A stretch of 64,000 nt of DNA from Bacteroidota bacterium (lineage in GTDB: Bacteria > Bacteroidota > Bacteroidia > Flavobacteriales_D > Sanyastnellaceae). Shown piece after piece: positions 38,597 through 41,524 of this stretch. A program made the position numbers and the translations under genes. Each line of letters begins with the position of its first letter. Positions within the stretch are counted from its first letter, which is position 1. The DNA is taken from assembly GCA_002746975.1 (NCBI GenBank), contig NVXE01000007.1, positions 56,615 through 120,614 on the forward strand. The letters are read 5' to 3'. The notes beneath the pieces were generated by a model. That model was not told where the DNA came from. It searched no databases and saw only the letters and a program-made list of their open reading frames with translations.

Positions 38597-38668
38597 GGCC
38601 CGTTCGTCTAGGGGTTAGGACGCCAGGTTTTCATCCTGGTAGCAGGGGTTCGAATCCCCTACGGGCTA
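38597..38668 (+). tRNA. tRNA-Glu (anticodon UUC)
   Basis: A 72-base cloverleaf. The acceptor arms GGCCCGT and ACGGGCT pair (first pair G-U), the D arm is GTCT...GGAC, the anticodon stem CCAGG/CCTGG encloses TTTTCAT with anticodon TTC, and the T arm is AGGGG-TTCGAAT-CCCCT. The discriminator is A. CCA is not encoded (ACAAC follows). Single tRNA, 56 bases after proS, followed by a terminator. Confidence 0.96.
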
Positions 38669-38683
38669 CAACAAAAGCAAAAG

Positions 38684-38708
38684 AACCGCGCACCAGCGCG
38701 GTTTTTTT
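38684..38708 (+). terminator. Rho-independent terminator of tRNA-Glu
   Basis: AACCGCGC (38684-38691), loop ACCA, GCGCGGTT (38696-38703), then TTTTT. Perfect 8-base stem and T-tract 15 bases after the tRNA. The T-tract is also the start of the outer arm of the structured element that follows. Confidence 0.95.
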
Positions 38709-38885
38709 GTGCCCGAACTTTCGCACAAAAAAAAACAGAACGTCGCAAAGCGCGAGAGGGCGGGTGTGTGAACCCACCCGAGCGTAGCTCGAGGTGGGGG
38801 AGGGCGCCCAATCCTCTCGATGAGGCATCGCCTCACGTTCTGATTTTTTTTACGATAACGAAAAACCGAAATCGGGCACAAAAAA
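38703..38885. other. Large nested inverted-repeat element without ORF; possible structured RNA
   Basis: Three nested pairs of arms are visible. Outer: TTTTTTGTGCCCGA (38703-38716) with its exact complement at 38872-38885. Middle: nine A plus CAGAACGT (38727-38743) with ACGTTCTG plus A and eight T (38835-38851), one mismatch in 17. Inner: CGAGAGG (38753-38759) with CCTCTCG (38813-38819). Inside are further hairpins: CCCACC.GAGC-GTA-GCTC..GGTGGG (about 38773-38797) and TGAGGC-ATC-GCCTCA (38821-38835). The T-tract at 38844-38851 would make the middle stem a terminator on the + strand, and the A-tract at 38727-38735 does so on the - strand. No reading frame has coding character. Confidence 0.7.
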
Positions 38886-38917
38886 CTTCCCGACAGCACC
38901 GCCAAGTCGAGGAAGTT
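38884..38917. repeat. Long hairpin directly after the nested element
   Basis: AACTTCCCGAC (38884-38894) pairs with GTCGAGGAAGTT (38906-38917) around an 11-base loop; 11 pairs with one bulged A. It abuts the outer arm of the preceding element. The rest of 38918-39080 contains a run of eight C (38944-38951), a GA-rich stretch (38966-38991) and A+T-rich sequence; I see no gene in it. Confidence 0.6.
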
Positions 38918-39080
38918 CTGTTGCTTTTCCGTTGAGTACTACGCCCCCCCCGCCAGGGATCACGACCGAACGAGTAAAGCGAGCGAGGGAGTAATCACCG
39001 ATTTTAAACACTTAAAATCATTAAATCCTGTTCTCAAAACTATAGCGATTTTTCTTCACTTTCTCATAATCTTTTCAGTT

Positions 39081-40679: not shown

Positions 40680-41285
40680 TTATTTCACGGTGTTTTTAAG
40701 CCTAGTTTTTACATCTTCCCAGCTGAGATCTTCAATGGTGATAGGGGGCGGCTCAAGTTCTGCGTTTTCGAAATAAACAATACTTTTTTTAGCGAAAAAC
40801 ACATCTGTATTTGGATACTTTATTGAGAAAAAATCTATAATTTTATTTAATTTAAAGACTTCTAGAAGGTAGTAAATATCATAAAAGTCTTTTTTGCTTC
40901 CCCGATTGCAAATTGCATTAATCTTCATTGCGGCTATATCTTCGAGGCTCATCAGCCTGATTTTCTCTTCAGTTCTAGATTTAGATATAGTTTTGTAAGC
41001 ATGTCTTATAAAATCAACTTTAATGTCGTTGATATACATGTTAATGCAGTTGTTAGATATAGAAGTCACACGAGTAGATGAGAATTTATTAATTAAAATT
41101 CCCAATAGTTTTTTTTCGTCAAATTCCTCTATTGTAAATAAATCTAAATCAACCGAAATTCTATGACCTATTTGTAGAGATAGCGCAGTCCCGCCTACTA
41201 GGTCGAACGATGTCAACTCTTCACTTTCCATAATCTCCCTTAAGAGTTCCAGTGTTGATCTCTCAACTGTGCTTGTGTATAGCAT
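40680..41285 (-). CDS. AbiEii/AbiGii-family nucleotidyltransferase toxin
   Basis: A 201-residue member of the DUF1814 nucleotidyltransferase superfamily. The active-site signature LVGGTALSLQIGHRISVDLDLFT (Gly pair at 31-32, Asp 46 and 48) and the later KKDFYDIYYLLE motif with its conserved Lys-Asp are intact. Relatives (AbiEii, MenT) transfer nucleotides to tRNA or other targets and act as toxins in phage-defence or toxin-antitoxin systems. The start overlaps the 3' end of the upstream partner gene by 46 bases, which fits a tightly coupled TA pair. Toxicity is inferred. Confidence 0.85.
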   Translation of the reverse strand: MLYTSTVERSTLELLREIMESEELTSFDLVGGTALSLQIGHRISVDLDLFTIEEFDEKKLLGILINKFSSTRVTSISNNCINMYINDIKVDFIRHAYKTISKSRTEEKIRLMSLEDIAAMKINAICNRGSKKDFYDIYYLLEVFKLNKIIDFFSIKYPNTDVFFAKKSIVYFENAELEPPPITIEDLSWEDVKTRLKNTVK

Positions 41286-41524
41286 TCAAAATTAGCGATA
41301 GGAATTTTGTAAAAAAGTGACAAGAAATTCAAAGTTTTTGCGTCAAGGGATTTGATTTTTATGATCTCACATTTGATCTCATCTTCAGAATAGACTCGGC
41401 GTAATTCCTCCCAATCTTCGTTCAAGCCCCTTTGTACAACTCGTGAAATTATAAAGTGAGCGTGCTCGTCTTTATTTATCTCTTTAGGATTTACATCCCA
41501 AAATATAGAGTCGTTGAAATTCAT
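41240..41524 (-). CDS. Putative antitoxin partner of the AbiEii-like protein (DUF6922-like)
   Basis: A 94-residue soluble protein starting MNFNDSIFWDVNPKEIN, with HAHFIISRVVQRGLNEDWEELRRVYS and a C-terminal half resembling a small helical domain (LDAKTLNFLSLFYKIP). This N-terminal pattern (FWDV..., D..., FIISRVL.RG..ED...L...Y) is typical of short genes encoded directly before AbiEii-type nucleotidyltransferases in Bacteroidota. It overlaps the toxin gene by 46 bases. No classical winged-helix like that of AbiEi is evident. Antitoxin role inferred from context. Confidence 0.75.
   Translation of the reverse strand: MNFNDSIFWDVNPKEINKDEHAHFIISRVVQRGLNEDWEELRRVYSEDEIKCEIIKIKSLDAKTLNFLSLFYKIPIANFECYTQAQLRDQHWNS

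Follow-up and report, generated by a model that had tools for sequence, protein, structure and literature searches.

We describe a large family of short, gene-less elements at the 3′ ends of tRNA genes whose members maintain the same shape despite extensive changes in their letters, and which is apparently undescribed in what could be searched. The representative from which this work began lies immediately behind a tRNA-Glu gene in the 64-kb stretch of DNA that was analysed (hereafter, the window), which derives from the genome designated G000. We consider it probable, at roughly 60%, that this representative results from an old insertion of an integrative element that carries no genes and targets the 3′ ends of tRNA and tmRNA genes. 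More broadly, the family suggests the existence of a new kind of minimal mobile DNA.

The palindromic element behind tRNA-Glu

The features of the window copy are as follows, with the basis for each assignment in parentheses where one applies.

38597–38669, + strand: tRNA-Glu (ttc), the putative insertion target (ARAGORN, Rfam)
38653–38669, + strand: final 17 nt of the tRNA, from the T-loop A to the base after the discriminator; this stretch is duplicated in fresh members (family comparison)
38670–38992, + strand: full element, from the tRNA-Glu 3′ end onward (homology with other members)
38683–38708, + strand: tRNA-Glu terminator hairpin and T7, inside the element in this subtype (the tandem tRNA-Leu unit includes the terminator)
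38703–38716, + strand: outer stem, left arm; pairs 14/14 with 38872–38885
38727–38743, + strand: middle stem, left arm (16/17), the inner part of which forms the closing helix of the predicted four-way junction
38727–38842, + strand: domain A core; matches covariance models R2 and R3, both built without the window copy
38744–38752, + strand: small arm 1, CGC-AAA-GCG (folding)
38753–38819, + strand: long central arm, with its apex CGAGC-GTA-GCTCG at 38779–38791, followed by a bulged A (folding)
38822–38834, + strand: small arm 2, GAGGC-ATC-GCCTC (folding)
38835–38851, + strand: middle stem, right arm, with T8 at its end
38872–38885, + strand: outer stem, right arm
38929–38992, + strand: domain B, a block conserved at the right end (30.1 bits with model R1, E 8.5e-8; the window copy is among the 12 in the model)
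38993–38999, + strand: AATCACC, probable decayed remnant of the expected tRNA-Glu 3′ copy (AATCCCC...; 9/17 positions)

An earlier note on this DNA had reported three nested arm pairs (14/14, 16/17 and 7/7), and all three are present where it placed them. The innermost is formed by CGAGAGG (38753–38759) and CCTCTCG (38813–38819), and the middle stem is flanked by an A9 tract (38727–38735) and a T8 tract (38844–38851). Further hairpins, of which the note had counted at least two, are formed by CGCAAAGCG (38744–38752), CGAGCGTAGCTCG (38779–38791) and GAGGCATCGCCTC (38822–38834), and the left outer arm indeed reuses the T-tract of the tRNA-Glu terminator. When folded as RNA, the region from 38690 to 38900 yields z-scores of −8.0 (+ strand) and −5.5 (− strand). 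The corresponding values for 38703–38885 folded as DNA are −9.95 and −9.28, and none of 200 shuffled sequences was equally stable. Fold z-scores in the range of about −8 to −10 show that the palindromes are genuine and not a product of chance. Of the two minus-strand frames that were said to cross the palindromes, one encodes 65 aa and the other 79 aa; both exist, and neither has support as a gene. The originally proposed extent of the element, 38703–38885, captures its palindromic half; by homology, the whole unit is 38670–38992, or about twice as long.

Covariance models of domain A also recover the window copy. In searches conducted over 451 bases with filters off, its + strand scored 22.8 bits with model R2 and 23.2 bits with model R3 (E about 1e-6), and its − strand only 3.3 and 5.3 bits, respectively. 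A search with default filters across the 64 kb did not report it. On the basis of the filters-off scores, the window copy fits the four-way-junction model of the family. At the opposite end of the element, the domain B hairpin pairs GGGATCAC (38956–38963) with GT/AATCAC (38991–38998), wherein C38961 lies opposite A38993. The right repeat matches the tRNA-Glu 3′ end at only 9 of 17 positions, which is not significant when considered alone. Thus, the window copy is probably old and its right-end repeat decayed, and its interpretation as an insertion depends on its relatives. Plain DNA similarity revealed no second copy of this element in G000. Two adjoining small genes are present downstream of the element, at 40680–41524 (− strand), and the 201-aa product of one of them resembles an AbiEii-type nucleotidyltransferase.

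A family of elements at tRNA and tmRNA genes

The possibility that the window carries only a local repeat was ruled out because relatives share its anatomy, which recurs behind other tRNA genes in the same genome and in sister species. Among the 34 tRNA genes of G000, 30 of which had their downstream regions inspected, at least nine are followed by elements: Glu (the window copy), Leu(taa), Leu(gag), Ala, Met, Arg(cct), Arg(ccg), Val(gac) and Cys. The Val(gac) and Cys copies are known by domain B and their tRNA copy, with domain A being degenerate. Sister species carry further elements behind Gln, Asp and tmRNA genes. Possible element remnants are also evident at the Pro and His tRNA genes of G000.

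Although their letters differ, members are built in the same order: the closing stem comes first and is followed by one small arm, the long central arm (apex sequences such as AAGCTTGCTT), the other small arm and domain B. This last block ends in ..GGT and is followed by a copy of the host tRNA’s own 3′ end. The elements span about 150–320 bp and contain no genes; the longest complete frame is 66 aa, and a protein-coding function was rejected because no frame inside the elements exceeds this length. A terminator separates the tRNA from domain A in the Glu, Leu(taa), Asp and other copies, and no terminator intervenes in the Arg, Ala and Met copies. At Leu(taa) in G000 the element occurs as a tandem unit, wherein the second copy is truncated and the terminator is inside the repeated unit. 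A palindromic mobile element that had landed in the tRNA terminator was among the readings first offered for the window. The window copy is one of many at tRNA 3′ ends, which makes the palindromic mobile element the closest of the note’s three options. The terminator, however, was not the landing site: insertion is at the 3′ end of the tRNA, and in this subtype the terminator lies within the element.

Nine members exhibit at their right end an exact 17/17 copy of the 3′ end of their own tRNA or tmRNA. Over 22 site-matched copies, 277 of 374 positions agree, compared with a mean of 196 after permutation, and none of 10,000 permutations gave a value as high. An empty site is available at tRNA-Arg(ccg) of genome G013, where the tRNA runs straight into the terminator TAAAGTTATT...; in G000 and G008, the element and a 17-nt copy are located between this same tRNA and the terminator. 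Similarly, the tRNA-Glu site is occupied in G000 and G008 and is without the element in G001, G004 and G011, and many tRNA genes of G000, along with the equivalent genes in sister species, have none. Comparisons of this type indicate that the elements insert at the 3′ ends of tRNA and tmRNA genes. The Arg(cct) and Arg(ccg) copies are 90% alike within G000 and 88% alike within G008, compared with 62–67% for copies at the same gene between the two genomes. This pattern is expected if elements spread among the tRNA genes of a lineage, and gene conversion could produce the same similarity. The Ala copies of G000 and G008 were clearly inherited vertically.

In the sister species G008, the tRNA-Glu element is inverted between its 14-bp outer arms (L003 1575–1700, at the end of contig G008:C92). 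This contig ends at the apex of the central arm, such that a real inversion and an assembly artefact are indistinguishable. Truncated copies in G000 and G008 (L040 1845–1968; L013 1–130) are interrupted at the tip of the central hairpin or close to it, the point at which the G008 tRNA-Glu contig also stops.

The shared shape of the elements appears to be under selection. When each sequence is folded singly, 15 or 16 of 19 members (depending on whether one half-decayed member is counted) form a closing stem and three arms of near-fixed size, wherein the small arms are mostly 9–17 nt, the central arm is 58–67 nt and the stem sequences are unrelated. The outer arms vary between members. The earlier note had recommended an examination of the arms for compensatory changes, and such changes are abundant: model R2 derives from five Arg copies, and once 15 members are aligned to it, both sides have changed in 33 of 37 base pairs. 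In this alignment, 90.9% of cells pair, compared with 65.6% after shuffling and 35–43% when the partner is slid by one column; the alignment (A6) was fitted to the structure and leans towards it, a bias that single-sequence folds do not share. Domain B exhibits a separate regularity. In 21 of 32 hairpins at the right end, the base facing the start of the tRNA copy is a C (null mean 5, maximum 11), which places the anomaly exactly at the junction between element and tRNA copy.

Outside the genus, neither plain DNA similarity nor the domain B model (applied to 399 genomes of the order) recovered more than almost nothing, and the only copy there that the latter matched is in one other genus (G077). 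That copy (G077:C35, L210 4161–4333) is a complete element with a tRNA-Arg 3′ copy on its right and no tRNA body on its left, and it may reflect transfer, rearrangement or misbinning. Only covariance model R3 reached other families, with matches in 15 further genomes of the class and E-values down to 4e-13. To judge from named proS relatives, this class is presumably Bacteroidia. In eight of these 15 genomes, ARAGORN identifies a tRNA or tmRNA no more than 90 nt upstream (Arg, Cys, tmRNA, Ser, Leu, Gly, Lys and Met), and the matches supported in this manner fall in seven other families. Two further R3 matches have tRNA-like ends as judged by eye. At a tRNA-Ser site in another family, the element is repeated in tandem, and the second copy carries a tRNA-Ser 3′ copy of its own. 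As a control for false positives, R3 was applied to 552 kb surrounding proS genes in 80 genomes, and no matches were obtained. Two weak class-wide hits (L242 and L244) were set aside because they look like chance matches inside coding sequence.

The proposal that the window contains an undescribed structured element is supported by its fold, which is kept by compensatory changes, and by the lack of a corresponding family in Rfam. Covariance searches at the window locus returned only the tRNA, with no other family above the gathering threshold, and a search with 12 members at E-values up to 1 gave no significant non-tRNA match. A phage or plasmid origin was rejected given the lack of DNA matches in phages or plasmids, and the exact domain B pattern was not found in viral contigs. 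Unlike a MITE, the copies have no terminal inverted repeats in common, and their outer arms differ. In contrast to an integron cassette or attC site, no GTTRRRY core is present as judged by reading, the right ends read ..GGT/AATCC, and most copies have no integrase in the neighbourhoods checked. A narrow search of open-licence papers uncovered no description of such elements.

Candidate mechanism and alternative explanations

Insertion at the 3′ end of a tRNA gene with a displaced fragment is the mark of tyrosine integrases (PMC4383910). In sister species, an integrase is located directly behind tRNA-Glu and tRNA-Arg(cct), with domains Arm-DNA-bind_5 and Phage_int_SAM_5 and a weak match to Phage_integrase. 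The integrase found behind tRNA-Glu in these species is absent from G000, and no integrase is linked to most copies in the neighbourhoods checked. Two loci provide additional observations. In G001:C8 (L208 1344–17180), a 444-aa tyrosine integrase lies directly behind tRNA-Glu. Genes with secreted-looking products come next, as do several displaced tRNA-Glu 3′ ends that carry the conserved lead-in ATTTACTGAGGNGTGTGTAGCCCCCTACGGGCTAC (5336 and 12605), and the whole is possibly a cassette-like array. In G533:C29 (L247 5742–7260), which belongs to a distant family, the integrase gene is found about 150 bp upstream of an element and points away from it, and a tRNA-like 3′ end lies between the two, in a layout reminiscent of an integron.

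From the family, its insertion signature and its conserved structure, we infer both an enzyme and a substrate. The element would have two folded parts, namely the four-way junction of domain A and, at its right end, the domain B hairpin, the 3′ arm of which continues into the tRNA copy. Because the elements carry no gene, the moving enzyme must act in trans. A tyrosine-type integrase is the candidate, and its target would be the T-arm and 3′ end of tRNA genes. After insertion, the tRNA to the left of the element would be intact, and the right end of the element would carry a displaced copy of the final 17 nt of that gene. No circular form, excision event or gain between strains was seen. The substrate, for which we have less support, may be a folded single DNA strand, with selection acting on shape and not on a product. 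This form of substrate is favoured by the selection on shape, the triloops, the fixed anomaly at the junction and the lack of a product.

The main alternative is that the element is a conserved structured RNA made by read-through from the tRNA, with a role in tRNA maturation or regulation and with the 3′ copy as part of the RNA. The tRNA-sense strand folds more stably in 18 of 19 members and contains more G-U pairs (46 versus 30), the covariation is strong, and the copies without an intervening terminator could be reached by read-through. However, the Glu, Leu(taa), Asp and other copies are separated from their tRNA by a terminator, the element is missing at many tRNA genes of G000 and at the same genes in sister species, and the G008 Glu element is inverted. 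Moreover, triloops cap almost all of the small arms, unlike the GNRA tetraloops that are usual in structured RNAs. We regard this explanation as unlikely.

Next in rank is the view that the elements are deletion remnants of ordinary tRNA-integrated islands, in which a larger integrase-coding element has been reduced to its two ends. Integrase islands do occupy the same tRNA genes in sister species, and in G005 domain A is directly followed by an integrase remnant. Yet intact island ends (G001, G004 and G005) are without domains A and B, no large element bounded by these two domains was found, and decay would preserve neither a four-way junction by compensatory changes nor the same small size across many families, making this origin improbable. 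Least probable is that the element serves as a double terminator, insulating the tRNA locus from transcription on either side. This proposal, also made in the earlier note, suits the window copy, where A9 and T8 flank the middle stem, and some members such as Leu(gag) end in T-runs. It fails as a description of the family because a T-run after the stem is missing from the Met copies and from most Arg copies, and because the three arms, domain B and the tRNA copy are conserved yet unneeded for termination.

Beyond our preferred reading of a gene-less integrative element, we tentatively consider a wider possibility to which we assign less than even odds. Namely, a minimal mobile DNA may be distributed throughout the class, comprising gene-less cassettes that are conserved only as a folded single-stranded shape and are moved between tRNA and tmRNA 3′ ends by a host or foreign tyrosine recombinase. 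Such cassettes would amount to a gene-free counterpart of integron cassettes, with tRNA genes serving as the platform.

Comparison with known systems

Genes for tRNAs are a standard entry point for mobile DNA, and to our knowledge the known entrants carry an integrase and genes. If our reading is correct, the elements described herein, which occur in several families of one class and keep their shape through compensatory change, would rank with the smallest integrative elements. They would also allow a clean test of whether folded single-stranded DNA is subject to selection in settings other than integrons and ssDNA phages, and would account for assembly breaks and for odd hairpins that follow tRNA genes in these genomes.

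When assessed as a tDNA-targeted integrative element, the family exhibits 3′-end insertion and a displaced 3′ copy at the far end, which is exact in nine members, and lacks an integrase of its own. As with the tRNA and tmRNA islands of the Islander set (PMC4383910), the target is the 3′ part of the gene, which stays intact on one side with a displaced 3′ fragment at the other end. In contrast to those islands, the elements have no integrase or any other gene, measure only 150–320 bp, maintain a conserved nucleic-acid fold and can number up to nine or more in a single genome, where they occupy different tRNA genes.

Integron cassettes and their attC sites, for which a folded single strand serves as the substrate (PMC3053210), provide a second comparison. 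Both have a hairpin recombination-like site, a fixed unpaired position, a shape that is kept while sequence varies, and tandem copies. The elements differ in that they have no gene, no adjacent integron integrase and no GTTRRRY core seen at their right end, and a tRNA 3′ end takes the place of attI (PMC3053210). Finally, like MITEs and REP/BIME repeats, they are short, non-coding, palindromic, multi-copy and presumably moved in trans. Unlike these repeats, they share no terminal inverted repeats, are bounded by a 17-nt tRNA-derived repeat and not by a short target duplication, target tRNA genes and exhibit a far more elaborate fold.
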